Origin: Tubulanus polymorphus
Lineage: Eukaryota; Nemertea; Palaeonemertea; Tubulaniformes; Tubulanidae
Direction of reading: 5' to 3'
DNA: 64,000 bases
NCBI RefSeq assembly: GCF_964204645.1
Contig: NC_134030.1
Span: 7,872,278-7,936,277, forward strand
Part shown: one piece after another, positions 1-41,760 of the stretch
Numbering within the stretch: the first letter of the stretch is position 1
Layout: each line of letters opens with the position of its first letter
Program-made: the position numbers and the translations under genes
The notes under the pieces: generated by a model
Told to the model about the DNA's origin: nothing
What the model saw: the letters and a program-made list of their open reading frames with translations, nothing else
Database searches by the model: none

Positions 1-3000
1 CTCGTCAATCTGGGTTCGTGTGAAGAACAGTGCACGAATACGGTGGGAAGTTATATTTGTAGTTGTTCCGGAAATAAGATACTCGATTCAAACGGCAGAA
101 CCTGTTCAGGTTAGAAAGATTCAATCTATTCTGATTGACCATTCATCCTTTATTGATGGCGTCTTGACGTAGCAATAAACATGACATTCATTACAGATGA
201 AGATGCTTGCGATGGAGTCACTGTGTGCCAGCATAGGTGTATTTCCGAACATGGAAAATGGCGCTGCGATTGCAATAAAGGTTACCAACTCAATAGTGCT
301 GACCAAAAATCATGTTCCGGTAAGACATTTCCGATAGCCCATGAATAGATATTAATACGAATCTTCAGAAATTCGTTGAAAATTCTTTTTGTTTTGAAGA
401 CATAAATGAATGCGCGACCAACAATGGGAACTGCAGTGAACTTTGTATAAACGAACCTGGCAGCTTTACATGTGACTGTAACATAGCTGGACATGTACTT
501 AATTCCGATAAACGAACATGCAAAGGCAAGACATTCCTTAAAGACACATTCAATTCTCATCGATTTGCTTTAGAGGTTTCTAAGGGCTTATTCGTTTACT
601 TGTGCAATGTATTTGTATCGTTCCCTCTAGCTCACATTCCATGAATCTAAAATATCTATATTGCAATATTTTTAAATGTTTCAGATCCTTGTGATCCAAA
701 TCCCTGTCTTCATAAAGGCGTATGCACCATTGCTGCAGGTACATTTGATTGTAGCTGCTCGACTGGTTTCACTGGTAATACATGTCACCGAGGCTTGGTG
801 ACTGTAGATATGCCTGATGTTGTAAACAGTGATACTCCAAGTCAAATAATCGTCTACGCTAAGCCGAAAAATGAATTAATCATTAGACCTGTTGGAAAGA
901 ATCTGATTTTCTCGCCAATTGAGGTCGTTATTAAATATCCCAAAACCTCGGCCATATTCAATGTCATATCAAAGGCGCAAGGGAGGCATCGGGTGGATTT
1001 TATTCTATCCGGAATAGACTCGCCGATATTTGGACTAGCTCCTGGGTTAGGAGAGCTGGTCCTTCTTGCAGGTGATGTTTTCACTCGCTTACAACTACCG
1101 AGAAAAACTCTACCCAAGGGGTGCTTTAAGATCGACATAGCAAAGTGTCCAGATGGCACGAATAAACTGACATTTTCCCTGTCCTCAAGTTCACCGTGGT
1201 ATCGTCTGAAATCGAATTCCAACGTATTGTTTACATTCGGGATCGTGTTTGCCGAAAGTGGAAAGTTAGCGATACCGGTATCATTAATCGGTCTACTGGT
1301 AGACGAATCGGACAACGGATTCAAGATGGCATTTGTGAGCTCCAACCTGAAAGCAGATGATGGCCAGAAAGTATTAGGAGATAGGGAGAACTGCTTAGAG
1401 ATTCCGCTATCTTCGAAGGATATTCGCGAGCTCATGTACAGCAACGCGTTTGCTCGACAGTATTTGCTGTCGCTGTACGAACAGCTGCCAGCTTGGATAC
1501 GTCTGACAGAGAAAGAAATGCCTCTTTTGACGTTCGCTGACATGAAAGCAGACCTCATGCTCGGCAAAGACACACAGAAGCTGTTATCTTGTCAAGGAGC
1601 CCCAATCCACGATGATCGCTACTACAGCATTTTCCAATTCCAATCTGGTGCTTCGATGTCCATTCTGAACAAAACAGTGAACCTGTTTTCACCACTAAAA
1701 GGCAAGAAATTTTGTCTTATCGTCGACATATGCAAAGATGCCGCCCGCACCGTGGTACTAATGCTTCCACCAGGATCGCGTGATATCTTAGACGGCCTTG
1801 ATATAACTAACGGATTGAAAATCAAGGTCAAAGGAATTGGCATCAGTCTTACAAGAGACCTAGCGGTGCGACTTCAATCTAAGAGTGTTCGAGTTTGGAC
1901 CGGTAATGAAATTATTCCTTATCCGTAAGTTCCTTATCATTTTCCTTATCCGTGATTAATGTGATCAGTCTCATTAATAATAATTTCAATACAATCATAA
2001 AACTATTTCTATGCAAACCTGCAGTGTTGATCCATCTGCTAGTCTTTGGTTGGCCGGAGAATTCATCTATCACAGAAATGAGTCCTTTACGCGAATCGCA
2101 GCGAATGCCGACAGCCAATTTTTCGCCGTGGTGCCATCGCCTAAAAAAGTAAGTAAAATTTCGTTCTCTCTTTACATACATAAGATGAAACATTCTATTC
2201 GATTTATATTGCATGTTATTAATTCGCGTTCTTCTGTAGCTCCTGACGCACGTGTTTTTACAAGAATGGCACAGCTATCTAAAACTCGACGCCGTTCTCA
2301 ACGTGACTCTGAATTTCGAACTGTTTCAAAATCCTCGCTCGCTGCATTTCCCATCAGCTGCTGTACTCGACTCATCAATGTACGCCTCGATCGGTGGTAT
2401 GTAGAATGAGACGAGACTGATGATTAAAAGTGAGACGTTTACTGAATGGTCGATGAATATTGTACCTCTGTTTCAGGGCTGCATGAAAGAAAGATGTGCG
2501 CCCCCAGAGCCAATCCTTCGGGCATTTTCTTCGCCATGGAACTTGAAGTGAACCCCTTCAGTTTCATTCCAGTCATCGGGGAGTTTGCCGTCACCAATCG
2601 CCACATCGCCTATGCATTTTTAACGTACGATCCTCGTAATGCAATACTGACAGCAAAACCGATCAACATAGGCCGCGATATCCTCGATCTGAAGACAAGA
2701 GCATCGCGTATAGCGAAGTCCATTAAAGACCACGCCAAACAACTGGTGGCTGAAGCGACCGCTGCTGGAAAACAGTTCTACGACAAATTTGAGAACCATG
2801 TCGATATGCTAGAGGCAAATCTATCGAAAATGGTGGAAGAAATCAGTTTTTTCAATCTGCCTAAGCTTAGTGATGCACTTGCCTTAATCCGTCAATTTGT
2901 GAAGGACGTGGAGTTATCGTTTGAACATTTCACGGATGCACTTAAGATGCCGATCAAAACGGCTATAGAAGGTGTCATCAATTCGATCAAATGGGAAGTA

Positions 3001-6000
3001 GCAGACGTTAAGTACAAAGTTGAAATGTTGCAGAGGAGAATCATGCAGCAGGTGACTGATGTGATGAACAAAAAGTCTGGCTGGGGTTTGAAATATCGAA
3101 CAACGATTGAAGTGTTCAGTATTGAATTTGGGGCGGTGGACTTAGAAGTGGTATACTCGACGAATTTTCTCGGTGAATGCAGCCGTTACAAAAGAGTCTA
3201 CGAGCTTCTGAAAGGTGAACCAGCACTACGAGGTCTCGCCATATTCCACGTTAAAAAACAGATATATTGGTGGCTAAGTGTAAATTTTGGTGGCGGTTTT
3301 GAATTGGCTATGGGAACTGAAAGTAAAAATTTCATCATCCGTATCACCGCTTGTTTGAAGATTTTTCAAGTGATCACTTCCGAAGTCGACGTGTACATCA
3401 GTAAGGCTGGGATAACCACTGGCTTAGAGTTGAGAGTATGGGATCTGTTTCGAGTTCGGTTGATCATCAATTCTACCGTAGATGTTCCATGGAAGAAAAT
3501 GAATGTGAGAGCTGAAGTCTGGTTTTTGCCCGGTGGCGACAACTCTTTCGAAGGAAGTCTTTCTGAGGCGATCATTAATGTAGCTAAAAGGATTGGAAAT
3601 GAAGCTAACAAGAGACTGACACAAGCGCAGGAAATTTTTGACATTGCCGATGCGAAGTTGTCCAAAGCAGAGAATTGGCTCGATGAGAAAAAAGCCGAAA
3701 TGAACAAAGCGAAGAAAGTATTCGATTACGCTGTCAAAAAATTAAAACAACTTGAAAAGAAAGTGGATGATCTGAAGCGACCGTTTGAGAAAGTCGTTGC
3801 CGATCTTGGTCGTGCACAGGATCAAGTCGATAGGCTCTGTCGAATCAGGATTTGCGAACAGATTTGTATTCCTGGATTTAAATGCCGTATAAAATGCATC
3901 AGGGTCAATATATTTTGGGTATCTGTTAACTTATGTTTCCCGATTTGTTCTCTTACTAGTTGCATGTTCAGCATTCCCAATCCTGTGTGTTTAATAGCTA
4001 ATGCACTGTGCAGTCTGGTCCGGATTGCAGCATACCTCGCTCTTGAAGTGGCAAAACTTATTGTTCGTGGAGTTCTACTTGCAATGGATGTTGCTAAGGC
4101 TGCTGTGCGCGTGGCTGCTTTTGTCGTAGACAAGTCCAAAATTATTGTAGACTTAGCTAAACTTCCTTTAGATTTGGCAGGGATTGCACTTAAGGCAGCT
4201 AGAGTTGTGTTAAAAGCAAGCAAGGAATCTCTAGGCTTTGTAAAATTGCTTGTCAAAGGTGCCATAAATCTGTTTACGTTCGTTATCAGGAATTTGCCGG
4301 TTGACATGAAAAAATGTGGGTTCTCTGCTCAATTATCCATCGAGGACCAGTATGTGTTCGACATTTCGTGTGAGTTGAATATTTTCTATACCGGATGGCA
4401 TACGGCGAGGTTTCGTATCAATTTCCGGAATCCATTCGCGACCATTTGGGAGGTTGCGCGTGAAATGGTAAAGGCCCTCGTAAACCTTTTTAGATTTGGA
4501 AAACGTCGCAAACGCGATTTGTTATTTGAGGCAAACATGCAGATGAATCGGTTCCGTCGCAGCGTTGAAGATGATTCAGGTTTTGAAGATCTATTGACGA
4601 ATAAAACATTATCGTTTACTGATACTGTATTTGATGAGGAATCAGCTGGTAATATAAGAGCGGAGGATTTGAAGGCGACGGATTTACGTATTGCTTATTT
4701 CAGAAAAAGATGTAAACAAGTTACTGAGGTCGACTTGTTCCTTACATCAGTGGTTTCTATCCTGAACGGAATCGCAAAAGAGATTTTTACTGATGTAGAG
4801 AATTCGAAAAACGCTTCAAAACGGGCAGCGTCAACGCAGCAACCGACCCAGGAAGATAGTTTTGAATCACTGGGTATCAACACGACAGAAGCGATAGAAA
4901 AATTCAATATGACACGCGAACAACTTGATGCTATGCTGCAAGAGGCTTTGAAAACTGAAGAATTAGAGGCAACTAAAAATATATCGGACTTAGCCGAATC
5001 TGCAACAGATGATGTTTCATACCAATTGGATAACTTTCCTTTACTAGATTCGTGGAAAGCAGAAATGGAAAACGTGACCAGTGATCAGTATTCGACATCC
5101 GTGTGCAAAGGATTCGCCGATTGTGTCTTGGTGAAATTTGGAGAACTGTACGATATATATTCTGGAATTGATTCGCGGTTGAAAGATGGAGCAGACCAGG
5201 CAAAACTTATCATTCCAGAAGTAGAAGAAATGGTCCTACAGTTGTTGAATACAAATCAGAGCATGACAGTTACTGAAATATACAACTCAACATCAAAGAT
5301 CATCGAGTTACTGGATAAGCTGAGAGCTACAAATCCATTTTGTGTGGAACCTCCGCAGATCAAGGTATCTCCTCGTTCTAAGGAAGTTCTTGAGGGTGCA
5401 ACTTTAGTGTTGAGTTGTCGTGCTTCAGACGGTATTGTCTGGCTCAAAGATGGTACCGTTCTTAATACAACTGCTGATGACCTGCGTATAGAAAATGCAA
5501 GTATGGAAGACGCCGGTAATTATCAATGCCAAACTGGTAATATCGTAGCAAATATCACTTCAGTTGTTGCTGCTGTTACCGTAGAAAATCCACCGGCTAT
5601 AACTAGACAACCTCTGGTGTCAGTTTCTGTTCCCGAAGGGTTCGAACCTGCAGTAAAACTGGATTGCGGTGTAACCGGCATACCAAAACCTGTGATAAAA
5701 TGGTGCACTTCGAATAAAGAAGGCATTGATGGTCGTTGTTTTGAAGCAACTGGTGAATTGGTCTTACGTAAGCCTTCGCCCAAGGATTCCGGTATGTACT
5801 GGTGTGAAGCCCGGAACATTCACGGCAATGTTACTTCAAGAAGATCGACGGTATTAGTGCGAAAAATACAGTTAGGGTCTCCAGCTGTCAGGATGATGGT
5901 CGGATACTTCTTGAAGACGTCAACAGCAAGGCAGAAACGACCATTGACCGACGAGCAAATATTGCACCACGCTTTCGCTACGTCGATTATCAACAACGTA

Positions 6001-7529
6001 GCCGTGCCAGGCGTCGAACTAGAATTACTAAACAACAACCTTACGATGAGCTTCCAACTCATTAAGCCAATTCTGGGTCTGATCGACAACTCGGTACCCT
6101 ACGCTAATCTGTCCAGAACATTCGATAACGCGCGCATGTCGATATATTTTGCCATTGACAACTTCAGAAAAGCTGTAGAAAATGAAGACGTGACAGCTAC
6201 GTTTCCACAGAAGACATACGTAGCTGATCGTAGCACACTCGTCATGTCTGACGTATGGACGTACTGCCGGGCAGGATATGAACAAAGCAACCATCAAGTG
6301 TACCTCTGCGGTAGGCTTCGATATGATCGTTATGTTCTTCTTATTCATCCATTATTGCTACGTTTTTAATGAAACCTCACTTATATAAGTAAAATATTTG
6401 AAGTGTTTCACAATTCAATTTGCAGAGGCCTGCCCCATCGGGCAGTATCGCACAGATGAATTACCAACATGTAGAAATTGTCCCAATGGTACTACCACTC
6501 AAGAACAAGCGTCGCCCTCATTAACATCGTGTCAAGGTACCGTGCCATAGTGAAACGTGGTCGTCAAAGGTTTTGATGCGGCTTTTTAAAGAACAGGAAA
6601 AGATAAAATTCAAGAAAAATTACACATCGATGTCCGTTAGTTAACAGTGAAGATATGTTGTTGTGATAAACATCTATTTCCAAGTGGCCTGCCTATTTAC
6701 TCTTATGATCTAAGAACTGTTTGTACATAGTATGTATATTTTTTCAGATCCCAGTAAGATATGCTGTCAAAATAGATCGGTATGTAACTCTTCTTCGAAA
6801 TATTTTTTTTCTTCAGACGCATAGATTATCACATACTTCTTTATTCCTTCATAGGATTTTAAGCTCCACATTGGCGTTGGTTTAGGATTTGGATTGTTGT
6901 TCGTGATAACTATTGTTGGTAAGACACCTCATGCATTGTCATTGAGATTGCTTCGTTATTATCAAAATTATCAGGGGCGGTTCGAGGATTATTTGCGGAT
7001 CAACACATGATGGGCATCTTTTTCCGTCAATAGATTTTATTTTAAGTTTCTTGAAATAGACCATGGCCCTTTATTTCATGAATGAGTTTTAATACAATAC
7101 AAGAAACATTATGGATACCCGAACAATGTGAGCCCCGCTGACGTGAAGCCAAAAAAGGAGTTGAGAGGAGGGTCATGGAACACATCCTTCTGATTAAAGA
7201 CCTAGTTGTTTTTTTTCTCGAGATTTCTGAGATGCCCCTTAAGCATTTAGGTAGATATCTTGTCAACATTTTGGTGAGAAACTCAGAGGGGCCCATTCGC
7301 CTTGAATCCACCCATGTCTTAACTAAGAAACCACACAGGATGCTATGCAAAGACTGTTAAGTGTATTTCAGGAACTGTAGCGTATTTACTGAGAAGACAT
7401 CACGAAAAAGCTCGAACTACAACGGAAATAAAACAAGAACGGAGTGTTATAAACAACCCTGCGTACGAATCAACAGACTCTGAACTTACCGAATCAAGAA
7501 CCACTGACTTGCAGAACGATAATCCATGA
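1..7529 (+). CDS. Giant modular single-pass receptor (EGF / Ig / ephrin-receptor-like), 5' partial
   Basis: The exons read in one frame are 1-109, 197-319, 400-525, 685-1924, 2025-2148, 2240-2396, 2477-6310, 6426-6536, 6749-6780, 6855-6918 and 7372-7529. They give 2,025 residues, open at the 5' end. The first three exons each encode a calcium-binding-type EGF module (the third starts DINEC), and a fourth EGF opens exon 685-1924. Residues of about 160-1580 match no domain I know. They include a Lys/Glu-rich coiled-coil-like stretch (around 3600-3840), a Cys-rich patch (3840-4020), a long amphipathic hydrophobic stretch (4020-4300) and two furin-like sites (KRRKR, RFRR, around 4498-4562). Two Ig domains follow (5350-5560, 5590-5840), then an ephrin-receptor-like Cys module (6426-6536), a membrane helix (6855-6918) and a 52-residue tail with NPAY. 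It is likely a cell-surface adhesion or recognition receptor. The intron after 525 uses a GC donor. Splicing is inferred from frame and phase. Confidence 0.8.
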
Positions 7530-11878: not shown

Positions 11879-14800
11879 CTATGCTTCTGACTGATCGTTG
11901 TTAATCGAACCGCCTTCCTCGGTTACGATCATGTTCCATTTCAAACTACTATCGTCTCTTAGTCTCGACGAAATGCCGTCGTAAATCGGATTATCGCAGT
12001 ATAGCAATTCTTCGTCGCCTTGCTGGTGCCCTAATGTTAGCGAATTCGGGATTTTCCGTGGACCATTAATCAAATCCTGATCTACGACAGCGTACGTCGG
12101 GTCGTCGCTAGAAAACAAAGGGTTCGCGTAATTTAACGAATCCGACCTCTCGTAATTTGGCTGTCGTCTAATGCTATGCTGATCAAATTCACGAAGTCTT
12201 TTTGCTTTGTATTGTGATCTATTCCTGTAATGAACATAAACAAGTCTTATGCAATTTATTGAGAAATCACGTTTTGAATTTAAGGGTTTATCTAAATAAG
12301 ACTTAACGTTATGACTGACCTTTTTGAATTAATGATGAATATGAGTAAAACAAACAACACAATTACCACTCCAATTCCGACGCCTATTCCTAAGACAGTA
12401 TATATATTCATGCCGTTTGCCGAGTTTGAAAGTTGACCAGCAACGGCTGTTGTCTGAACGCTTGTAGAAAATAAGTAATGTGTTGATAATTTGGGATAAG
12501 ACGTGCTTTCACCAATCAAAGTCGAAATACTTTTATCTGTAGTTGAAGGATCGTTTGTCGTCGATATTTTAGGTGGTGAAATCGTTGTTTTCCGACGTGT
12601 TGTAAGTGGGATAGTGGTAGAAGATATCATCTCGGAAGGAGAACTCAATGACATGGTAGAAGTGAAAAAACTGGGCAGTTTTGAGGATTGAGAAGTTGTA
12701 GTTCCCGTTGATAATTCACCTACCATCGTACTCGTTCGGTGTATCGATGGAGAGCTGCTCATCATGGGCCTTCTCGATGTGCTTGGAAACATTGTTTGTT
12801 TTGGGGTTGTAATCACTGATTTAGTGGACGCCGACTGAGTTGTTGTTATTTCTATCGTTGTTGGACTGGTAACCGTGGGTTCAGTAGATGTTGGTCTAGC
12901 AGTTATTAGTGAATTGTTTGTCGTGCGACTAGTAGCTGGTTCGGTAGTTTCTGGTTTAATTGTTGGGGTCGTTGGTCTGGTATTTGCTTGACTACTTGTG
13001 TGTTCCACCGTAGGTAATGGTTTGGCTGAACTCGGGCGAGTAGTCATTCGTCTGGTTGTTAGCGAAGAATCAGTAGTCGATGTAGTTGGTGGTGAAGATT
13101 TTGGTTTGGTTATTAGTGAAGTAGTAGTCTTTGTAATTGATGTTGAAGTAATACGTTGTGTAGTAAGTGTATAAGTAGTCATGGTAGATTTTAGTGAAGT
13201 TGTTATTGGTTTAGTAGTTTGTGGACTAGAGGTCATGGTAGATTTTAGTGAAGTTGTTATTGGTTCAGTAGTTTGTGTACTAGAGGTCATGGTAGATTTT
13301 GATGAAGTTGTCATTAGTCTAGTAGTTTGTGTACTAGGGGTCATGGTAGATGTTGGTGAAGTTGCGATGGGTTTAGTAGTCTGTGTTCTAGAGGTCATGG
13401 TAAATTTTGGTGAAGTTGTTATTGGACCCGTAGTTGTTGCACTAGTAGTGGTTATAGTTGATGGTGAAGACATCGGTTGAGTAGTTGGTGAACTAGAAGT
13501 CTTGGTAGATTTTTGTGAAGTGGTTATTGGTTTAGTAGCATGTGTACTAGTAGTCGTTTTAGATGTTAATGGCGATGATATAGGTTTGTTAGTTGGTGTG
13601 CTTGTGGTCAAAGTTGTTGTGGGGCGAGTAGTCGCTGACTTGGTAGTAGAGGGAGTCATGGTAGATATCAACGGAGAAGTCATTGGTTTGGACGTTGATG
13701 GACTATCTGTAATGGTTGTTGGTGGATGAGTAGTTGATGTACTAGTGGTCATTGTTGATTGTTTTGGAGTTGATGAAGTAATGGTAGATCTTGGTAGAGT
13801 TGTAGTAGACTTAGTTGTAGTTTTTGTAACAGTGGTCTTTGGTATTTCGTATGTTGAACTAGATGCTGTAGACATGGTAATGGTTCGGGTAGTTGTTGCA
13901 GAGGTAGATGGCTCATGTGTAGTTGTCGTCGTTCGAGGAGGTAGCTCTAAAAATACATTAAAACATTGTAATATCACAATGCTCCTAAACTGTACCAACG
14001 AACCCGAGGCGTATACTCACTTTTTTCGCAAACGTTTGGTAGTGGACTGGAACACGGAGCTTCCGACCAGTGAACTTTGGGCCCTTCTAATCCGACAGTT
14101 AGCGTGAACATCGCCACGCATTGTTCCACCGAAGCCTTTACCTTTTTAGGGTAAGTTTTGAACCAATCCGTATATACCATCGGTTGTCCTAGTCGTGAAA
14201 TAAAAACCATACGTTATATCGGTGGGCCAAATGCTTCGATACCTGGGCCTAGTAATTATATCATACCAGTGTGTAACATCCACTTCACGTTTGTAGCACC
14301 GATCCAAAATTTATCAATCAGATTATCCGAACCTTTCAAATGACTGATGAAACTTCTTACTTCAACCTGTTGCATCGTTGTAGTAATGGTTAACAGACCA
14401 CCACCTCTTTTAGCGCAAAATTCTCGCGCTTTAAACCACGACAGCTTTACGGAACTGGCATACAAACAGCGGCCCCCCTTCTTTACATTATCACAGGTTT
14501 CTGTTCCTGGAACGGTGAAATAACTGTGATATTTATCTAGGCGTGCATGGTAAGAATTTTGTGGCTGTATGATCGAACCTTTTATTTCGCAGATGAATTT
14601 TAGCAATGCGGAACAGGTCTGTTCCGACCACCGATAATCAAATGCTGATATTACCGCGCATGACTTGGTTTCTCGTCCTGAATTCGGTCTATTCTTTTTC
14701 CAAAAATCAAATCCACCTGAAATCAAAGTGACCCCATCAAACGAAGGATGCAGAATTTCAGTTAATTCACCTGTACCATTGATTTTTCAAAACATTCGTA

Positions 14801-17800
14801 GAGAAGCCGTGTTAAACTGGCGATAGGTTAACTTGGTTATATCAGGGAAGTGTGATGAGATGGAATACGGACGCTATTGTGCAGCTCTTGTCGAATGTGC
14901 GTTGTAATTGCCCTAAAGCCGATAACGGTTCGTCGGCGAGCGCTTTGTTACGTAACGCGCCGATAAGCGATAACCAGCGAGATCGGGAATCTCCGTAATA
15001 ATTCAGTTGTTTCCGAATATCGGTTTTTCATCCCATAATAAACTTATATAAAAATTCCTCTGTAAACTGGTTAAACTCAACACCTGATTTCCCCTCATCA
15101 ATTATGGTCGATCAACTTGTATTCACAATTGTCTTAAATTTAAGTGCCCCCTAGTTTGTCTCTTAACTGCTTCTCTTTAATCTGTTTTAGCGTGTAACTG
15201 TTTCTACGTTAATTTTCCTTTAGTTAGTATCATCTCTGATTTCTTGAATTAGTCTCTTTGTCTCTGGATTGTATATATCTCTCATAATTTCTGTAGTATT
15301 CATTATTTCTGAAGATGACTATTAGGACATAGACGAAACGTTGAATAAACTACTAACATTTTTAATTGGACTTTTTCGTTATCATTGTGGGATTCTCTCT
15401 ACATCGCTTCAGACGGATATAGTGTTTTATCAATCGTGATATCGGTTCTTTCCGCTGTATTAAAATGGCAACGGTTGTCAACGAAATTATAAATGATGAC
15501 GATTTTGACGATCTATTCTTTGATAGTGACGAATTGGTTCAGATCGATACGGAAATATTACGGGAATCCTCTGGATCAGGTTCAACTAATTCGGCCGATT
15601 CTAGTGAGTGTTATTCCTTTTGAATCAATGAAATATCGGAATAGTTTCCACCTAATTGCAGGCACTTTATTCTTTCCTTTTCTTTTTCATATAGGTACTT
15701 CTCAGGCTCAGCTGACCAGAGACTGCGATCTGAACACGAGAAAACACACATACAGGTATTTTTTACATTTATTTTTATAATCAATACAATCCTTTTAGGT
15801 TATAAAATAATAAACGAATACAGAAAATAATATATAAACATAATATAAAAAATCCAGATAAGTACATGTTAAAATAATAATAATTATTATTATTTTCGCA
15901 GGAACACTATATATTTGGAAAAGGCTATGACTGAAGTGATTAACCATCGAGTATTTAAATTCAGTTCAAATGGAATGGCAGCAGTACATTATGGAAAATC
16001 GATCGATAAAATTTTGACTACAAATACGTCGCCGTCCAGACTTGGAATTGACCAGTGGTTTACATGTCCATTGTTTTAATTTGATAGTCACAGGGACAGT
16101 TTTTTTAACATTTTTGTTCTTACGCCATTTTTGTAATTTGACACGACACATATTACAGATATATATCGGGTACTGTTCAGTATCATCATCAAAATCAATG
16201 TTGAACAACTCCTTCACATGGCTTTTGAAATTATTTTTATCGATAGGACGACGATCCACACAATCGACAAAGATCCATGACTAAAAACAAGAAAAGGTTA
16301 ATCAAATGAGATTGCTGATGCTATTTAGGCAACTTTATTTATATGGGGGACAATAATTTGTAGGCCAAATGTAAGCGTTATTAAGTAACATTATTATGTA
16401 GTAAATACACATTTTAAAGATCATACTTCGTGTATATGTTTGTGTCGTAACATAGCAACATGACGTCAGAAACGAAAGCTGCGCGAGTCTGGGCCGAAAT
16501 ATTTGACATCTTCAAGGCCCAAATAACGCTAAACCCGGAATCGGAACGAACTGGCAAAAACATATGTTTAACACATAAAAACAGACTTTAATCACAATAT
16601 AAATACTTAATGTTCCGATACCGGGTTTCGGAGATATAGAAGAATAAAAATACATACCTTTTTGGACAAATTTTACGAGAAATTGTTGAATTTCAACCGA
16701 TTTTCTAAAGAAAAATATGTGTATACACAGCCACTTCCACGTTGTTCAATGAACTGCAGTGCGCATGCGTAGTATCGATCGCAGAACATTTATCGGGCTA
16801 AAACTATTGCGGGTTGTTCTGCGACCGAATCAAAGTTGATGTTGACTGGTGTTCAGCTGGTAACACACACTCGATAAGCGTAGCTTACTGCTGTTGCGGT
16901 AACCTTTGATGTACGGGCTGAATTGAATAGCCTACATCCGGCAATTAAAAGCGTCCGTATTCCATCTCATCACACTTCCCTGGTTATATGAACTACGAGC
17001 TTCCGTTACTAACGCGTAGCCTCATCAGGTAAATGAGACCCAATGAAGCTGCGATACATTAGTAGCAAAGGCTACCTTTGATTTAGGAAAATGTTGTTGT
17101 GCTCGAATGAAAAGACTTACCATTAACATTATAAATATAATTGTGCAGTGGTCCACCACAATTTTTGGTTCTATCTCCTGAACATTGTAATCCACAGGAA
17201 ATTCCGTACCCGTATCTGCCATATTTATTTCCGCACCAGCATTCTTTAGCGTACTGAAGGAAAATTACGACGAAGCTTTTACAAATTTTGATGTTCGAAT
17301 GTTAGATCTACATAAACCCGAATTCTTACCTGAAGACCGGCATATTTCCATTTCTCGTGTTTGCACAATTTCATACATATATCAATGGTCATCGAATTAG
17401 AGCGACGGATTCTTACTTGAAGATCACGATTTTTGCTGTTGAATATACCATCCTTTTTATCAACAAAACAGCCTTGTGCCCCTATATCTAGCGACGCTGT
17501 ATAAGATATTGAACAGATGCAAGGCTTATATGACAAACAAACAAATGTAGAATGATTTCATCGTCGGTTTTGCAGGAAACCATTCATTTTAGGGTGGCTT
17601 ACATGTTGCGAGGCCATTTTCGAGTTCAAAACCGTTACCATGATTCCTTTATACATTGATAACTGCTATCGATGTGCACTACGTCATCAATATTGGCGTT
17701 TCAAAATAACAATAATAATTGTGAATTTTGGCGTTGCCTTTTTGATGATGAATTTGAGTCAGAATTTTGGCTAGACTGGTTGATTCAATTTAGTTCTCGA

Positions 17801-18430
17801 TATTACCAAATTAAAAAAAAAAACTTCATTTATACTTGATATCCCATATTATTCATTTTCGACTTTTCTTCAAGGCGTCAATAAAATTTTGAGTTAGTTT
17901 TCTTGTTAGTTTTCAGAACTTACTCATATTATGTTCCCAATGCCAATCGGTTTGCGTCAGGGTACCACCTGTCCAAGCAGAGTTCCATTTTCTTTTGCCC
18001 ATTTGTCCGACGATAAAATCTCGCTCTTCCTGACTCTCAACGTCCAACTGGGACATTCCTCGATTTTGGCAGGATGTCTGCACTTGCAGTTGAGTAAGTT
18101 CTTTCTCGTTGAAGTAGTAACAGGAGTCGGCGAATTCCACCTCATCGTTGCCTGGACATCTATCATTACTTGAAGCTATGAAAACGAACATTATATGAGA
18201 GGTTTTTAAGAGTCCAATCTCCGAGACAAAACTTTCTCCAAAAACAGCAGCAACATCTTTCTAGTCTCATTATATTCAAACATAAATCGGTCATCGTCAA
18301 GAAAATAAAAGATGACAAGTTGTGCTTACCCCCAACAGAGACGACTGTTTAACCGATACTTACCGATAGGAACGGATAAGCTGATAATGCAGACTAGACA
18401 CTTAAACAAATAAAGCAAAATTGGCATCAT
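11879..18430 (-). CDS. CTLD receptor with an inserted WSC domain, mucin stalk and NPxY tail (paralogue 1)
   Basis: Exons in transcript order are 18430-18364, 18175-17924, 17496-17330, 17253-17121, 14716-14267, 14188-14021, 13946-12320 and 12224-11879; the sum is 3,210 nt, 1,069 residues. The order of parts is: signal peptide; N-terminal half of a CTLD (three Cys, ending near DWHWEHNM); a WSC domain with its eight Cys in the next two exons; then the missing C-terminal half of the CTLD (FWKKNRPN ... FICE). A complete second CTLD follows, then about 500 residues of Thr/Ser/Pro mucin, one membrane helix and a 115-residue tail with TYAVVD and DNPIY. The CTLDs lack EPN/QPD; RPN is present instead, so canonical calcium-sugar binding is uncertain. 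It is likely a carbohydrate- or microbe-sensing surface receptor, which is inference. CTLD1-C and CTLD2-N share one exon here but are separate in the paralogue at 34359-39790. A transposon sits in the intron after the WSC. Confidence 0.85.
12320..13946 (-). repeat. Degenerate Thr/Ser-rich mucin repeats in one exon
   Basis: The exon encodes a Thr/Ser/Pro stalk with loosely repeated motifs such as TTKPITTS and KSTMTSS, expected to be heavily O-glycosylated. The repeats have diverged more than those of the paralogue at 34832-37097. The long open frames on the opposite strand are by-products of this composition. Confidence 0.75.
15305..15416. repeat. Repeat copy inside the transposon, shared with 39163-39380
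   Basis: The segment has gaagatgactattagga, gaaacgttga, taaactact and gggattctctctacatcgc in the same order as the reverse-complement copy around 39155-39260. It may be an interspersed Penelope-like or SINE-like piece. Confidence 0.5.
15465..16079 (+). pseudogene. Plus-strand transposon gene remnant, acidic N-terminus
   Basis: The exons 15465-15603, about 15696-15754 and about 15901-16079 can be spliced in frame. They start MATVVNEIINDDDFDD, continue with a Ser-rich linker and end at a stop near 16079. Its last exon overlaps the antisense zinc-region piece. I see no catalytic domain. It may be the 5' part of a longer element gene cut by internal deletion. Confidence 0.35.
15966..16284 (-). 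pseudogene. Transposon-borne RAG1-N-terminus-like zinc region, frameshifted
   Basis: After an acceptor near 16284 the frame starts MDLCRLCGSSSYR. A neighbouring frame then continues with KNNFKSHVKELFNIDFDDD and YPIYICNMCRVKLQKW. The arrangement CxxC, a Val/Phe-Asp helix region, then Pro, CxxC and a basic tail resembles the zinc-binding part of the RAG1 N-terminal region and the related N-RAG-type transposon proteins. The frame changes between the two parts and no catalytic core follows, so it is not an intact protein. Family assignment rests on motif memory only. Confidence 0.4.
16990..17035 (-). repeat. Short repeat with a ctgatgaggctacgcgttag motif
   Basis: Read on the minus strand it gives ctgatgaggctac ... 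agtaacggaagctcg, close to the copy at 11486-11530 (ctgatgaagctac ... agtaaccaaagctcg). It directly abuts the transposon target site, so the transposon seems to have landed in an older repeat. Confidence 0.45.
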
Positions 18431-19531: not shown

Positions 19532-20770
19532 TTAGCAATCGTCTTCCCCATTCGCGTGTTCGTTTCCATTTATCATTACGAACGATTCGACTTTATTTTC
19601 GACTGTCATTTGTTGTTTCAGTTTGCGTAATTCGACTTGTAAATCGTGCATTTGAAATCTTGCCCTTTGCAGCATACGCCGGGATTTTATCGATTCGGGC
19701 GAATCGGCTTCCGTCTCGACGTATACCTCGTATTTGTTTTGCGGCTTGTCGACCGCTTTCAAAGCGATTTCGGAGTTTATCTTGAAGACGGGCACGTCGG
19801 TGAATATGACGTTATCGGTGGTGAATTTTTTCGAAAATATCACCTCGGTATCCTGTTGATGCGCGACTGGTGGTGGCGGCGGCGGTGCATTTTCGGCAAG
19901 TTGGTTGCAAGAGGAAGCCTCGGCACCCCTGAGTTCGAACGGGAACGGTATCGAATCGAAAACGATATTGCCGACGAGAGTTGAATCGTCCATGAATAAC
20001 TGGCTCCAATACTGCGAATCGTCAACGTTCGGGAACAGAGTGTTAACCTCTCTTAACGCGTTGTTTACCATGATTCTCGCGAACCGATCGATTTTCGCCA
20101 TGTTCCTGGCGAATTTCACGCGCTCTAGATCCTCCAGGTAACGATTCGCGAGGACGGTTATCGGCGGCAATTCGGTAGCCTGCAATTCCGCTAGGCGTCG
20201 CTCCTCATCGGCAACTCCGTACTCGTTCGACGAGCAGGAAGATCCGGTCTCGGAAGCGTTATGTTCGTCGTCGCCGAAAGCCGCCATATCGTCGACGTCG
20301 TCGTCCCAGTTTGAAGACATCGACGAAACCGATGACCTCGTGTTAGATCCTAAAGTCTCGCGAGATGCCGCGCGATCTTTCTTTCTCAATTTTCGCCGTT
20401 TGGACGGAGATAGAAGCTTGACATCCACAGGAGGTTTATTCATCGGTTCATTTTCAGCCAATGATCCATGATAGCCATTGGGCAACTCGCCGTTTTCACT
20501 TGCCTCTACCCCTTGATCGTTATTTTTGATATCGGGAAGATCGTGCATACACATATCTGTAAGGCACTTCTTGCCGAGAATATCGGAAATGACATCATCT
20601 TGAATGTTTGATGACATCTCCCAGTCTAGCATTCGAAGTTCGTCTTCAATTTTGCTTGACAACGAGTCGAAAACTTTCATATCCGGCTTGCCCGGATGTT
20701 CGCTGTTTTCAATACGCGTATTCACAACTACATCGCCGTTCACTAGCTCCAAGTCATCTGAATCACCCAT
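19532..20770 (-). CDS. Unrecognised 412-residue protein with acidic N-half and C-terminal coiled coil
   Basis: One uninterrupted frame starts ATGGGTGAT at 20770, with an acceptor-like ttattttcag just upstream (about 20787), so the coding region is probably contained in the last exon. Residues of about 1-190 are acidic and Ser-rich, with a basic SPSKRRKLRKK patch. The middle (around ITVLANRYLEDLERVKFARNMAK) looks like a conserved helical domain. A six-residue Pro run follows. The region FTDVPVFKINSEIALKAV precedes a C-terminal coiled coil (residues of about 360-395). No signal peptide or membrane helix is seen, so a cytosolic or nuclear protein is likely. GC content is clearly higher than in the flanks. 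I do not recognise the family. Confidence 0.75.
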   Translation of the reverse strand: MGDSDDLELVNGDVVVNTRIENSEHPGKPDMKVFDSLSSKIEDELRMLDWEMSSNIQDDVISDILGKKCLTDMCMHDLPDIKNNDQGVEASENGELPNGYHGSLAENEPMNKPPVDVKLLSPSKRRKLRKKDRAASRETLGSNTRSSVSSMSSNWDDDVDDMAAFGDDEHNASETGSSCSSNEYGVADEERRLAELQATELPPITVLANRYLEDLERVKFARNMAKIDRFARIMVNNALREVNTLFPNVDDSQYWSQLFMDDSTLVGNIVFDSIPFPFELRGAEASSCNQLAENAPPPPPPVAHQQDTEVIFSKKFTTDNVIFTDVPVFKINSEIALKAVDKPQNKYEVYVETEADSPESIKSRRMLQRARFQMHDLQVELRKLKQQMTVENKVESFVMINGNEHANGEDDC

Positions 20771-22248
20771 AATGAATGAATTAAGCCTGAAAATAAAGAA
20801 AAAGATCCGAATAAGGTTCTAATGACAGGTTATCTGAGACAGAAAATGTAGTTAGCACGAGGGATTCGGGAAACACACGTAATCCCCATTCTGAACTATC
20901 CCTTCAAATACGTTGTTAGGGTGTTGAGAATTTCAATACGATACGCGGAGAAATAGTAATATAAGAAGCTTTCCACATCTCTTATGTCTACATATCTGGT
21001 TTACAGAGACATGCGTTGATCAAAGGAGCAAATAAAAATAGCTACAAAAACTACATGTGGCGATGCAAATCGGCGGATGAACAATTGACGGCTATGACTC
21101 TGCAATGTGCGTGTGGGGGAAAGTAAAACCGCTTCGTTCGCGTAATCATTTTCAGGTGAAAACCGTGTAAACAAGTGCACGAAAATAAATCTGAACGATC
21201 GACGTATGAACCGTTAAAGTTTATTACAAAACTTTGCAATGGAATTTCAACTATAAATTGCCTCACAATTTTCCTCGGTTGAGCGATGTGTTTTTTTTTA
21301 GAGTCGATGTTTTTGCTTTCAGAATTCGCTCTTGCTTCTGAGTTTCAGGCCCGAAGAGGTGGAGGGGGCAAAAGAGAATGCCACTCGTTTTTAATCTTAG
21401 AATATTATTCAGCTAAAACGTATAACATTTCAACTATAACAACTTAATATATGTATATGCATTAAATTTGTCGATCTTTTCATTTAGACCCTCGATCAAC
21501 GGGAATCATTCGATCAGAGGCCATTGTCTGAGCATCAAATTTCTGAAGTCTTTCCGTGGGAGAGCCCACAGTTTTCATTTCAGTTCCAACTGAATTAAAA
21601 ACGGACCCACCCACTCATTTCCCATGCTACGGAAATGAGTTTGTATTTTTTTCAATTCTTCTTCGGCTGTTAAAAATTGTAGGCAAGGTAAGGATTGTTA
21701 CCAGGATTGCAACGGAATGCACGTATTCTGTATTGCTTTTCAATGGATGAAGTCTGACCAGAACATTTATTTCGTACTTTCTGCCTGGAACGACGATTTT
21801 AGTGTGTTATCTATGGGAAATAGTTCACTTTATTAAACGTGTGTAGAGCACATTCGGTTATCGTGGTGGTATTCGTTTTAATGAAAATACCATTCATTCA
21901 GCACGCAATAAGCTCGACTCGGAAGTTGCACTTTAACATTTTCATTTACTTTGATTCCTACGCTAATTCGGGATCAATTGATCTTAAACGCGCACGTGCT
22001 TTGTCTTTATTTGATGAGTCTATTACCGGGTAAGATCTTCTAAAAAGAATAAGATTTTGTTTTTCACCAGCCGACGTGTCTGTTTGTACCGATCTGTTTC
22101 CATGACGACTACAGATAGATATATCATTGACGTATACAAAACTAAAATTCGTTCCTCGATAAAATTAACTCGTGACGCCGAAGAATAGAAAAAAATGGAA
22201 AAAAAGAACAATAGAAAAATTTCATATTGCCGTATCTTCACACGCGCC

Positions 22249-34358: not shown

Positions 34359-37300
34359 TCACGTCTGCGATGTTCTGAATGTTGGTTCATTTCTGGAGTC
34401 AGGTTCATTCCTTCGCTGAACCCGATGTGAATTATCTGTAGTATCCCAGTCGTTCATTGAAACGTACTGAGGATTATCGTAACAATCTGTCTCATAATTC
34501 ACCGAATCGTCTCTCACAAAATCAGGATTTTCAGATGCTCGGCGTAACTCGTCTGCCAAAACCAATCTCGAATGCATTTCGTCACGTAACTTCCCCCGAC
34601 GCCTGAAATCCAAGATATCTTATCTTAATTTCTAACGGGAAATGAATTATTGCCGCGCAAACAACTGAGTTGGCAACTAAACCGAACGCACACAGCGAGA
34701 CACACACCCGAAATACGAAACAGAAAAGCTTTTCTAGCTTGTTTCGCGACTGGGTGCGCTAATTCGAAACGGAGCATTTCAGGTTCATTATCTAGCGATG
34801 CTGGCACATCATGCACCATATTATACTGTACCTTCTATTTGCAATGATGAAACCAAACAATGTTACCAGAACGACGAATACTATGAAGCATATTGCGGTT
34901 ACCATGACCATCTCAGAGGAAATGACTTTCTGACTATTTCTGTTGAGATTCACTGCGGCATTTGCAGTTGTTGACGTATTACTACTTTTTGATGTAGTTA
35001 GTTTGACTGCGGAAGATGCATTTTCAGACGAAATGACGCTTGTTTTTGCTGTGGCTTGGAAGGTTGTTACATATGAATCCGTCTTTGGCCCATTGGTAGT
35101 GGTAAGGGGTTCAGTGGTAGTTGTAGGGGGTAGAGTGGTAGTTGAAGGGGGGTCAGTGGTGGTTGTAGGGGGTTCAGTGGAAGTTGTTAGGGGTAGAGTG
35201 GTGGTTGTAGGGGGTTCAGTGGTAGTTGTAGTGGGTAGAGTGGTGGTTGTAGGGGGTTCAGTGCTGGTAGTTGTAGGGGGTAGAGTGGTGGTTTTAGGGG
35301 GCTCAGTGTTGGTGGTTGGGGGTTCAGTGGTAGTTGAATGGGGTTCAGTGGTAGATGTAGGCGGTTGAGTAGTGGTTTTAGGGGGTACAACGATGGTTGT
35401 AGGGGGTAGAGTAGTGGTTTTAGGGGGGACTGTGGTCGTCGTAGGGGGTAGAGTGGTAGTTGTAGGGGGTAGAGTGGTAGTTGTAGGGGGTTTAGTGGTA
35501 GTTGTAGGGGGTTCAGTGGTAGTTGTAGGGGGTAGAGTGGTAGTTGTAGGGGGCACAACGATGGTTGTAGGGGGAAGAGTGGAAGGTTTAGGGGGTTCGG
35601 TGGTAGTTGTAGTGGGTACAGTGATGGTTTTAGGGGGTATAGTAGTTGTTGTAGGGGGGGTCGTGGTGGTTGAAGGGGGTTCAGTTCTAATTGTAGGGGG
35701 TTCGGTAGTTATAGGGGGTAGGGTGGTAGTTAGAGGGGGTTCAATGGTAGTTGTAGGGGGGCCAGTGATAGGGAGTAGTGTGGTAGTTGTAGGGGGTACA
35801 GTGGTGGTTGTAGGGGGCTCAGTGGTAGTTGTAGGGGGTTCAGTAGTAGTTGTAGGGGGTTTAGTGGTAGTTGTAGGGGGTTCAGTGGTAGTTGTAGAGG
35901 GTTTAGTGGTAGTTGTAGGGGGTAGAGTGGTAGTTGTAGGGGATTCAGTAGTAGTTGTAGAGGGTTTAGTGGTGGTTGTAGGGGGCTCAGTGGTAGTTGT
36001 AGGGGGTTCAGTAGTAGTTGTAGGGGGTTTAGTGGTAGTTGTAGGGGGTTTAGTGGTAGTTGTAGGGGGTTCAGTGGTAGTTGTAGGGGGTAGAGTGGTA
36101 GTTGTAGGGGGTTTAGTGGTAGTTGTAGGGGGTTCAGTGGTAGTTGTAGGGGGTAGAGTGGTAGTTGTAAGGGGTTCAGTAGTAGTTGTAGAGGGTTTAG
36201 TGGTAGTTGTAGGGGGTTCAGTGGTAGTTGTAGAGGGTTTAGTGGTAGTTGTAGGGGGTAGAGTGGTAGTTGTAGGGGGTTCAGTAGTAGTTGTAGAGGG
36301 TTTAGTGGTAGTTGTAGGGGGTTTAGTAGTTGTTGTAGGGGGCTTAGTGGTAGTTGTAGGGGGTTCAGTGGTAGTTGCAGGGAGTTTAGTGGTAGTTGTA
36401 GGGGGTTCAGTGGTAGTTGTAGGAGGTTCAGTGGTAGTTGCAGGGGATTTAGTTGTAGTTGTAGTGGGTTCAGTGGTAGTTGTAGGGGGTTCAGTGGTAG
36501 TTGTTGTGGATAGAGTGGTGGTTGTAGGCGGTTCAGTGGTAGTTGTAGTGGGTAGAGTGGTAGTTGTAGGGGGTTCAGCGGTAGTTGTAGGAGGTTCAGT
36601 GGTAGTTGCAGGGGATATAGTGGTAGTTGTAGGGGGTTCAGTGGTAGTTGTAGGGGGTTCAGTGGTAGTTGTAGTGGGTAGAGTGGTGGTGGTTGTAGGC
36701 GGTTCAGTGGTAGTTGTAGTGGGTAGAGTGGTGGTTGTAGGCGTTTCAGTGGTAGTTGTAACGGGTAGAGTGGTGGTTGTAGGGGGTTCAGTGATAGTTG
36801 TAGTGGGTCGAGTGGTGGTTGTAGGGGTCTTAGTGGTAGTTGTAGGGGGTTCAGTGGTAGTTGTAGGGGTTTCAGTGGTAGTTGTAGGGGGTTCTGTAGT
36901 AGTTGTAGTGGGTGGAGTGGTAGTTGTAGGGGGTTCAGTGGTAGTTGTAGTGGGAAGAGTGGTGGTTGTAGGCGGTTCAGTGGTAGTTGTAGTTGGTAGA
37001 GTGGTGGTTGTAGGGGGTAAAGTAGGGGTTGCTGGGGGGACAGTGGTGGTTGTCGTGGGTACAGGAGTGGTTTTTGTTGTAGTAGTCGATGGAATCGCTA
37101 GAATGCAGAAATAACTTCAAATAAGTCATCAAACTTCGTTATGATATGATATAGAGCTCCCTATCAGAATACACACCTCTTACACAAACGTAGTAATTTG
37201 CAGTAGTGCACAGTTCATCCATCATCCCACTGGCGGCGATAGTGATACACATCGATTTCCGGTTTTCGTTAAAACTATTCGGCCGACCAGGAGACCAATC

Positions 37301-39790
37301 CGTATAAATCATTGAAGATCCTTGAAATAGATTCATTTGATTTCATTTCATTCATTGGAAGTAAGACTTTCTTACGCAATGATAGGTCCTTACCGTCACC
37401 GTGCAACCATAAACCACTGGTCACATCAATCCAAAATCCATATTCATATTGAACCGAAAGGTTGACTTTTGTTCGTAAATGTTGTCGCACATAGTTCTGT
37501 TTACTTCCGTCTGTTATATCCAGTAACGTTCCATTCATATTACGGCAGATTTCACGAGATTTGAACCACGACACGTATTTTCCTTCCTTGCTGACATACA
37601 AACAGAGTCCATTCGTCAATACGTACGGCAGGCTGCAATTTTGAACACCTACAATAAAAATCTTTGACTTCATTGGGAAAAAAATCAGTCATTACTATTC
37701 ACCAAAAACCTTAAGGAGCTACTATTTTCGTACCTGTTCGTTCGCAGATAAAACGGTCGGAATCTGTGCAGTCTGATTCCACCCAATTAAAGTTGCGGTT
37801 CGTTTTCAATAAGGCGCACATATTTGTATAACGATTTGAATCTGGCCGTGGTGTTTTCTTACCATCAACTTCGTGTATATCCCAACTTGAATACCATCGA
37901 CCTTGAATAGAATTCGACAACAACATAAACACAGTTTTACGAAGAACTATGAAATTTGCTCTTTTTGAATGACTACTGAATGCGATATTCAAGATATCTA
38001 AGGCTTTTTGTATTGTTCACGAATCTACGACCCGATCTTGTAAGTCTTACCATGAATGGAATATATGTAATTTCGACGATCACCGCCGCATAGTTTCGTC
38101 GTATCCCCCTCACAAGGCATGTTACAGCCAGTGCCCATTCCAAACTTGCCGTATGAATAGTCACAGAAACACTCATTCCCGAACTGCAATGGAATTCAAT
38201 CTCGCATTTTTGTAACTACATTGATACCCAGCACGATCATGACGGGAGTCAGTCACCGAGTTATTTGTTACCTGTACGCTGGCATATTTATATCCTTTTC
38301 GTTTACTTTTGCAAGTCAACCGGCATACTTCAGGGGTATTGTCTCCGTCACGATTTTTGACTTCGTTTTTCAAATCTCGTTTCCAGTCTTTTATAATCCA
38401 GGCATCAGTCTCTTTGTAGCAGCCTTGAGCTGATAGGACCTCGTTTCCTAGAAAAAAATAGTTATTCCTTAATCATTAAGATACATAATCAAAAATTTTG
38501 CCAAGTTTCAATATTCCTAGCCACGTGATCAGTTTCTAGATACAAAATATCCATTTGAGGATCTTCATTCCCTTCCAGGTATAGAAGACCAACCCAATCG
38601 AGTCCCGCGTCTCCGCGCGTTAAACCTGGGAGTTGTTCATGTACCCGAGTAAAATCACTAAATGATCCAACCTCGTAGATAACCTAGACTCGCACTGTCA
38701 TTGACAGACAATGTTAACATTTTCAGATTTCAGATGTTACCCAATTCAAAGCTTATGCCATGTATGTTGTCAATCAGTGTCTTTATTTTATGAAACACTT
38801 ACTCATTCCGAAGCGCCAGTCTCCAATGCTCGCAGTGCTTCCAGTCCAGGCGCGTGCCATCTTACGTGTGGTAATTATATCCACTATGAAGTTACGTTCA
38901 TCTTCAGATTTTAAATCAAGCAGCTTCGAACCCTGGTAATCAGACATGCAGCTAGATTTTGCTTGATCTTTAGTCCGCTTAGTTTTGCTAAAGAAATAGC
39001 AGCTACCTTGAAATTCGACGCCATCTTTGCCGCAAACTTCTACAGCGGCTACTGTCGCTGGATTACCTGAACAAAACAGACATTTTTCATGGTACATATT
39101 GGTAGATGGTTTTCTATTCTAATCACGATTGGTAGAACAGCATATCCGTGTTGACGCGATGTAGAGAGAATCCCTCAATGATAATAAAAAGTCCGAAAAT
39201 GTAACTTCGAGATAGTAGTTTATTTCAACGTTTCGACTATATCCTAATAGTCATCTTCAGGAATAATGTAACGTAATAATGTAATGTAATAACGAATAAT
39301 GTAATGTAATAACGTTGAAAAAAACTACTATCTCGAAGTTACATTTTCGGACTTATTATTATCATTGTGGGATTCTCTCTTTTCTATTCTAATTTTATAT
39401 GATGTTACAATGATTTTACATGATCCAATTTTACAAACGGTGAAGGATCTGATCTGCCCGACCATTACCAGGCCCTTGTCAAATCTTAAATGAGTTCACA
39501 ATTTTTGAATTTGTGGATTGCAAGTGGTCTCGGAAGTGACTCGCTTTGCTTTGTTTATGCATTGCTTAGTATCGAGTGAGTGGTTTACGTGCGAAGGCGC
39601 TATCTAAATTAGGGACGGGCCAAATTTGACTCGAGTCTGATCTGCTCCAATTTGACTCGAGCCAAATCCTCTCCGCGTGATCGTAGCATATGGAAAATTG
39701 CTGTATTACGAACAAAACCCCGAAGCCAGACTTACCTGATTGTTGTGCGGATATGGTACTGAGTAACAAAACCCAGCGAATGAAAGGCAT
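34359..39790 (-). CDS. CTLD receptor with an inserted WSC domain, heptad mucin stalk and NPxY tail (paralogue 2)
   Basis: Exons in transcript order are 39790-39736, 39066-38803, 38447-38272, 38183-38051, 37901-37734, 37648-37394, 37320-37177, 37097-34832 and 34602-34359; the sum is 3,705 nt, 1,234 residues. Parts in order: signal peptide; N-half of a CTLD (ends GDWRFGM); WSC domain with eight Cys in two exons (176 and 133 nt); C-half of the CTLD (RWYSSWD ... FICE, with RPDS instead of EPN); a second CTLD split over two exons; a mucin stalk of about 90 heptads of the type E/L/K-PPTTTT; a membrane helix; and a tail with DNPQYVSM, giving NPxY and YxxM motifs. The same order and junction phases as the gene at 11879-18430 show they are paralogues. 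Two acceptors (before 37901 and 37320) end in AAG. For the first, a TAG acceptor at about 37955 is a possible alternative that adds some 18 residues. Confidence 0.85.
35090..37080 (-). repeat. 21-nt minisatellite coding heptad mucin repeats
   Basis: About 2 kb of tandem 21-nt units (plus strand: ggtagttgtagggggttca-like) encode (E/L/K/V)PPTTTT on the minus strand. Length changes are multiples of three, so the frame stays open through the exon. Copy number is likely to vary between alleles. The opposite strand is open by chance and gives a long Val/Gly-rich frame. Confidence 0.9.
39163..39380. repeat. Inverted repeat element (59-bp arms) in the first intron of paralogue 2
   Basis: Arm 39163-39221 (agagagaatccctcaatg...) and arm 39322-39380 are near-perfect inverted copies. 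Between them lie a gtaatgtaataacg tandem and, on the minus strand, ctgaagatgactattaggat followed by atagtcgaaacgttg. A related copy is at 15305-15416. Confidence 0.75.
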
Positions 39791-40110: not shown

Positions 40111-41760
40111 TATGGTGGCTGATTGTGGCCATACTAAAAGTTATTTCTATACGGCTAGAGCTACGATAAAAAATATTCACGTTGGCCCGTTTTTTGGTTT
40201 TCTCGCGCGAGAAAAGAAAACATTTTGGGTTGAAAAAACATTTTGGTTTTCTGACTGTCTATAGAGGCTGGACGTATCGGCCCCACTCCGCTCGACGTAT
40301 CGGCCCCACTCCGCGCGGTGGCGCCACCCCGCGGGATTTACGCGAAGCAGCAGAACACAAACACGGCCACTCTCTCAATTTTCAATGATAGAAATCGTGT
40401 GTGCATTTCAATTATTTCGGCTGTTAGGGTTTTAAGGCACAATATAAGTTGATGATGTGATATGGGGATGTTAATTAATGATAATTCCGCAGTGAAGCTA
40501 GTCACGAACGGTGCCGATTGAGTGTATAGCTGCCAAAAACACTGAAATGTGCGTAGTTGCGTAACTATTTGCAGTGAATTGCAGACGAAACATGAAGCCT
40601 TAACGGCCGTTTAAAAAAAAATTATACCAATCGCAATTGTAAAATAAAAATGAGATAGAACCTAAGTTAAAATTCTGGCCATTTCTAAAATGTTATTAAT
40701 TATTATTACTAATTTTTAGTCAGTGCGGAACGTTTAGTTTTCCAACAATAATGAGGGGTGGTAGGTAGTCATGCAATTCAAGTCATCATTTATTACACGT
40801 TACTACCGTGTTGTTGAAAATCTCGCGAGTCCTGGACCAAACCCCAATGAACAATGTGATCTGTGTGCTGGCCACAAATGCACACAGATCACACTACACT
40901 ACCCATTACACACTCCAGTACCCACAGCTTTCATATATCCATCCAAATATTTAGTGGCTTTCTTCCTGGGTGGCACCACCGCGCGGGATTTACGCGAAGC
41001 AGCAAAACACAAACACTCTCTCACTCTCTCAATTTTCAATGATAGAAATCGTGTGTGCATTTCAATTATTTCGGCTGTTAGGGTTTTAAGGCACAATATA
41101 AGTTGATGTTGTGATATGGCGATGTTAATTAATGATAATTCCGCAGTGAAGCTAGTCACGAACGGTGCCGATTGAGTGTACAGCTGCCAAAAACACTGAA
41201 ATGTGCGTAGTTGCGTAACTATTTGCAGTGAATTGCAGACGAAACATGAAGCCTTAACGGCCGTTTAAAAAAAAATTATACCAATCGCAATTGTAAAATA
41301 AAAATGAGATAGAACCTAAGTTAAAATTCTGGCCATTTCTAAAATGTTATTAATTATTATTACTAATTTTTAGTCAGTGCGGAACGTTTACTTTTCCAAC
41401 AACAATAAGGGGTGGTAGGTAGTCATGCAATTCAAATCATCATTTATTACACGTTACTTCCGTGTTGATGAAAATCTCGCGAGTCCTGGACTAAACCCCA
41501 ATGAACAATGTGATCTGTGTGCTGGCCACAAATGCACACAGATCACACTACACTACCTATTACACACTCCAGTACCCACAGCTTTCATATATCCATCCAA
41601 ATATTTAGTGGCTTTCTTCCTGGATAAAAAATGTTTTACATTTGCCAATTTTTTTTTAATTCTCGCGCGAGTGTGAATTCTCGCGCCAATGTGAAAATTG
41701 TTGTATTGTTCCTCTAGCCGTAAAGAAAAAGTTTTTAGTATTGCCCAATCAGCCACCATA
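40111..41760. mobile_element. TATGGTGGCTGA-ended element containing a 654-bp tandem duplication
   Basis: The left end tatggtggctgattgtggcc (40111) and right end ccaatcagccaccata (to 41760) are inverted copies; the similarity extends about 100 bases inward, imperfectly. Inside, the segment from about 40318 to 40970 is repeated almost exactly at about 40970-41625 (offset about 654). No transposase is seen. The same ends flank 54511-55157. Confidence 0.75.

Follow-up and report, generated by a model that had tools for sequence, protein, structure and literature searches.

A WSC domain nested inside a C-type lectin domain in a family of predicted membrane receptors

A complete WSC domain interrupts the first C-type lectin domain (CTLD1) of a predicted membrane receptor, P1, and profile comparison of the translated exons confirms this nesting. 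The gene lies in a window of 64,000 nucleotides (C6:7872278-7936277) taken from a 268-Mb eukaryote assembly of 77 contigs. Its structure recurs in a nine-copy family in which the WSC and both lectin halves are under constraint. The reading that we consider probable is that a WSC module was shuffled into a phase-1 intron of CTLD1, and that the two lectin halves fold together around it to give a compound recognition head on a receptor with a putative uptake tail.

The gene models of P1 and its paralogue in the window, P2, were built by hand on the minus strand; every intron has GT-AG borders, and each reading frame runs uninterrupted from the start codon to the stop. P1 has eight exons and P2 nine, an additional intron in P2 separating CTLD1 from CTLD2. 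In both, the predicted order begins with a signal peptide, the first half of CTLD1, the WSC, and the remainder of CTLD1; CTLD2, an S/T/P-rich stalk, a membrane-spanning segment, and a tail follow. In P1, exon 1 (18364-18430) supplies the ATG, a hydrophobic, signal-peptide-like leader, and a GTAAGT donor, and exon 2 (17924-18175, bounded by splice sites in phase 1-1) encodes the first half of CTLD1 with cysteines C0, C0', and C1 and a WTGG motif. The WSC follows in exon 3 (17330-17496), which starts in phase 1 and ends in phase 0, and exon 4 (17121-17253), which starts in phase 0, ends in phase 1, and is also recovered by the genome-wide WSC search (C6:7889429-7889569). Exon 5 (14267-14716) carries the second half of CTLD1, with C2, C3, and C4, then a linker and the first half of CTLD2. 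CTLD2 scores 51.5 bits as a whole, and its second half is encoded by exon 6 (14021-14188). In translation, exon 7 (12320-13946) reads as a mucin-like stalk and transmembrane segment, and exon 8 (11879-12224) as a cytoplasmic tail in which NPLF and NPIY motifs precede the stop codon.

P2 spans 39790-34359 with an identical layout. Its gene model places the start codon and signal-peptide-like sequence in exon 1 (39736-39790), the first half of CTLD1 in exon 2 (38803-39066, also seen in the Lectin_C profile), and the WSC in exons 3 (38272-38447) and 4 (38051-38183), both matched by the WSC profile and the latter also recovered by the genome-wide WSC search. The second half of CTLD1 occupies exon 5 (37734-37901), and model and Lectin_C profile together assign the halves of CTLD2 to exons 6 (37394-37648) and 7 (37177-37320). 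Exon 8 (34832-37097) encodes a T/P-repeat stalk and transmembrane segment, and exon 9 (34359-34602) a tail with NPDF and NPQY motifs and the stop codon. Both genes can be read, on their predicted translations, as type I membrane receptors with S/T/P-rich stalks and NPxY-type tails.

The two halves of CTLD1 give an end-to-end lectin match only when joined. Against Pfam Lectin_C (PF00059), for which the curated cut-off is 22.6 bits, the first half of CTLD1 in P1 reaches 19.8 bits on its own (profile 4-60) and the second 23.4 bits (71-106). With the WSC removed, the joined halves produce a single 43.1-bit match that spans profile 4-106 of 107; with the WSC left in place the match falls into two stretches at 30.1 bits. 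The halves of P2 score 17.4 and 18.3 bits alone and 36.0 bits joined. Removal of the WSC thus leaves an end-to-end Lectin_C match above the cut-off, which places CTLD1 in the CTLD superfamily, with C1 in the first half and C4 in the second. The WSC itself (PF01822) is intact, scoring 57.7 bits in P1 and 53.1 bits in P2 over profile 2-82 of 82, with eight cysteines in each. A first-pass annotation of this DNA, made from the letters alone, had proposed a full eight-cysteine WSC in two exons nested inside a CTLD; both the nesting and the coordinates that it gave hold up, and the phases across the WSC pair are 1-0-1. Its statement that the next exon supplies exactly the missing half is also correct, except that the first half lacks three conserved cysteines (C2, C3, and C4) and not two.

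Chance can be excluded as the source of this layout, because it is identical in P2 and recurs in seven other copies, located on contigs C1, C3, C6, and C11. These were retrieved by searching the genome with both ectodomains and then scanning the retrieved regions with profiles: C6a (locus L031), C6b (L034), C3a and C3b (both L032), C11 (L033), C1a (L035/L036), and C1b (L039/L035). With P1 and P2 they bring the family to at least nine copies on four contigs, all with the same domain order; a scan of prokaryote contigs returned no relatives. Joined CTLD1 exceeds the cut-off in each of the six copies scored out of these seven (C6a, 47.1 bits; C3a, 36.0; C3b, 35.4; C11, 27.8; C6b, 32.3; C1a, 24.2). 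Across the five aligned copies, all 14 cysteines of CTLD1 and the WSC are invariant. The copies C11, C6b, C1a, and C1b (group B; L033, L034, L035, L039) have diverged first halves, which gives the impression of a host domain in flux around its WSC, and C1a and C1b carry an additional intron within that half.

The family bears directly on whether the gene model could be wrong, either because the two halves come from separate genes or because an overlooked exon completes the first CTLD ahead of the WSC; the first-pass annotation had named both as grounds for abandoning its claim. In P1, the WSC and the second half are 2404 nt apart and a transposon-like element sits in the intron between them, so that such an error is conceivable from this copy. 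Elsewhere the same intron shrinks to 149 nt in P2, 130 nt in C6a, and 82 nt in C3a, and it is absent from C11, where the second part of the WSC and the second half of CTLD1 share one open exon of 313 nt; that junction is readable in the DNA itself, with no splice prediction needed. On the other side of the WSC, the intron of C3b measures 74 nt, too short to hide a completing exon, and in none of the nine copies did profile scans place a CTLD second half between the first half and the WSC. No copy holds the entire CTLD1-WSC stretch in a single exon. Contradicted by nine copies already, a modeling error is very improbable.

A subtler alternative is that the WSC is flanked by two truncated CTLDs, one without its end and the other without its beginning, which do not fold as one domain. 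Domain order alone could arise in this way, and the diverged first halves of group B lend the idea some substance. Against it, the profile segments matched by the two halves complement each other exactly, with no overlap, in every scored copy, and the break sits at a known CTLD intron position. C1 is also retained along with C4 in eight of the nine copies, the exception being C11, in which the first half has no clear C1 and the C1-C4 bond would accordingly be missing; and every part is under constraint. We therefore regard a pair of truncated domains as improbable, and infer that the halves of CTLD1 most likely co-fold, with the C1-C4 bond reaching across the insertion and C2-C3 lying within the second half.

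Constraint was gauged in the closest pair, C3a and C3b, where the first half of CTLD1 has a pN/pS of 0.48, the WSC one of 0.24, and the second half one of 0.39 (upper 95% limits 0.68, 0.34, and 0.54); synonymous sites in this pair are near saturation, and ages based on synonymous changes were rejected for that reason. These ratios indicate that all three parts are under purifying selection; the copies are old and have kept all three. The ratios also bear on the possibility that the WSC exons form a cassette subject to alternative splicing, yielding one isoform with a plain CTLD1 and another with the WSC. The exon pair is symmetric, from phase 1 to phase 1, so that skipping it leaves an open frame and a normal CTLD in P1 and P2, and in-frame skipping would be possible in most copies. 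C11 is the exception: the fusion of its second WSC part with the second half of CTLD1 means that the WSC is not skippable alone. Moreover, the WSC is conserved at least as strongly as the lectin halves, and symmetric phases are equally what exon shuffling leaves behind. A cassette is thus unlikely, although a better contender than either of the alternatives above.

Alignment to solved mannose-receptor CTLDs places the WSC between the WIGL equivalent (WTGG) and the EPN/QPD equivalent (RPN). The long loop region of a CTLD lies between strands beta2 and beta3 (PMC7618208), and by this alignment the insertion site is in that region, as the first-pass annotation had stated, and more precisely in its first part. 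In the WSC fold, the first and last strands, beta1 and beta5, lie side by side (PMC5014086, PMC9024836); both ends of the domain should consequently be close together and joinable to the loop with little strain. A folded CTLD1 would then anchor the WSC at both its ends, on the side that faces the ligand, and the two domains may act as one recognition head. The first-pass annotation had suggested that the WSC could replace or extend the face to which ligands bind. The motifs that mark calcium site 2 of sugar binders, EPN/QPD and WND, are replaced in P1, P2, and C6a by RPN or RPD and by WSE, WVE, or WRE; CTLD1 and CTLD2 alike are without EPN/QPD and mostly without the WND residues, and WND is retained only in CTLD1 of C3b. 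With the calcium-site motifs of CTLD1 mostly lost, ordinary calcium-dependent sugar binding is unlikely.

How a domain came to sit inside another appears to be written in the intron phases. Exon shuffling of 1-1 modules follows Patthy's phase rule, and the WSC exon pair is in phase 1 at both outer ends with a phase-0 intron inside, while its host intron, likewise in phase 1, lies roughly a dozen residues past the WIGL equivalent. This class 1-1 arrangement is found in P1, P2, C6a, C3a, and C3b; in C11 the downstream intron has been lost. In CTLD2 of both P1 and P2, the corresponding position also carries a phase-1 intron, unoccupied. Genome-wide, 20 of 63 CTLD matches end at profile positions 46-71 and 13 begin at 52-68, indicating that an intron there is common in this genome; a phase-1 intron downstream of WIGL is likewise described for some vertebrate CTLDs (PMC514892). 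The phase pattern is the signature expected of the shuffling of a 1-1 module. We propose that a complete WSC module of two exons with phase-1 outer boundaries was inserted into an apparently old phase-1 intron, one found just behind WIGL in many CTLD genes. The receptor that took it up had two CTLDs, and the insertion would have put the module into the long loop of the first.

A possible source of the module is a gene in which WSC and CTLD stand side by side. Of the WSC matches across the genome, only those of the nested family and of a locus on contig C9 (L037 and L038; C9:13940000-13956000) have a listed CTLD match no more than 10 kb away; at the C9 locus, six tandem WSC domains are followed by several split CTLDs. 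The C9 WSCs share phase-1 outer boundaries where these could be read, but differ from the nested family in that the WSC repeats precede the CTLDs and the intron inside the WSC lies elsewhere. In a weak tree of the second WSC exon (45 columns), built to ask whether all nine copies descend from one insertion, the WSCs of P1, P2, C6a, C3a, and C3b (group A) cluster (99/92) beside those of C9, their nearest relatives in this tree; C11, C6b, C1a, and C1b are placed elsewhere on long branches.

In the open papers that we searched, no published CTLD with a nested WSC was found. The first-pass annotation's claim that no named family has this arrangement is consistent with those papers, and we treat the nesting as new provisionally. 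Its components are familiar. Among solved sequences, the CTLDs match MRC1 and MRC2 best, sharing the cysteine pattern, WIGL-like motif, and C-terminal half motifs of mannose-receptor-like CTLDs; they differ in that a whole WSC interrupts the long-loop region of CTLD1 and the calcium-site motifs are mostly lost. Likewise, the WSCs have the eight cysteines of Kremen1 and yeast Wsc1, with a CGG motif in P1 and P2, and Kremen and Wsc1 are also type I membrane receptors with S/T-rich stalks, but there the WSC is one domain in a row whereas here it lies inside another. Polycystin-1 and the sea urchin REJ proteins combine WSC and CTLD within one protein family (PMC1934368), as separate and consecutive domains. 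None of the other hallmarks of that family (PKD, REJ, GPS, PLAT, and multiple spans) was seen in P1 and P2: they are predicted to be single-span proteins with only CTLDs, a WSC, and a stalk, and their CTLD-WSC parts give strong Pfam matches to Lectin_C and WSC alone. Bivalve CTLD proteins are reported with WSC among their added domains, nesting not being described in the text found (PMC10140915).

Nested domains are uncommon in animal receptors, and here the route to one is legible in the genome: the module has phase-1 ends and occupies a phase-1 intron, CTLD2 holds an empty twin of that intron, and one copy has since lost it downstream of the WSC. Well-known examples of binding modules inserted in a host domain are the integrin alpha-I domain in the beta-propeller and the fibronectin type II modules in the catalytic domain of MMP2 and MMP9. 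The folds differ, but in those proteins the inserted module carries or adds binding, a role that is putative for the WSC. By analogy with the integrin I domain, one might go further and suppose that the lectin fold has come to depend on the WSC and to use it as the principal surface for binding. This would be a new kind of compound head, diversified over at least nine genes and recognizing microbes or other cells; we offer this bolder reading only tentatively. CTLDs vary their ligand binding in the long-loop region, and a whole domain there illustrates how far that loop can extend. The CTLD-WSC head may serve as a natural design for two-module lectins, and the nested family as a candidate set of invertebrate surface receptors.

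The tails suggest what might follow recognition. NPxY motifs occur in P1 (NPIY), P2 (NPQY), C6a (NPLY), and C6b (NPLY and NPAY), although motifs this short can arise by chance. Such a tail would drive uptake via PTB or clathrin adaptors, and, combined with the long mucin-like stalk, it fits a surface receptor that binds a ligand through its CTLD-WSC head and is then internalized. Recognition of microbes is one option for this putative role, and adhesion another. In P2, a long TTTTEPP/TTTTKPP repeat (window 35100-37097) makes up about three quarters of the 2266-nt stalk exon and shows strong strand asymmetry, with a GC skew above 0.4.

The large P1 intron between the WSC and the second half of CTLD1 is mostly taken up by an element of about 2.1 kb (14843-16982) with 36-nt terminal inverted repeats (14843-14878 and 16947-16982) that are 97% complementary. 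The element has ATATAAC on either flank and contains a broken open reading frame on the minus strand (15969-16280) that is weakly zf-AD-like, below the Pfam cut-off. A 70-nt inverted repeat (96%), MITE-like in appearance, lies in the first intron of P2 (39163-39380), and sequence resembling it can be seen around 15300-15400 within the P1 intron. Upstream of P2, window positions 40317-41308 hold a 300-nt direct repeat, 97% identical, with copies 654 nt apart. Between P1 and P2, an intact single-exon open reading frame on the minus strand (19532-20818) encodes an acidic protein of 413 residues; it was suspected by eye to be FEZ-like, which we rejected as Pfam gives no family match. On the plus strand, 651-1928 and 2446-6369 contain exons of a large, secreted-looking protein with an EGF-like domain followed by a 1307-residue exon that holds two immunoglobulin domains.
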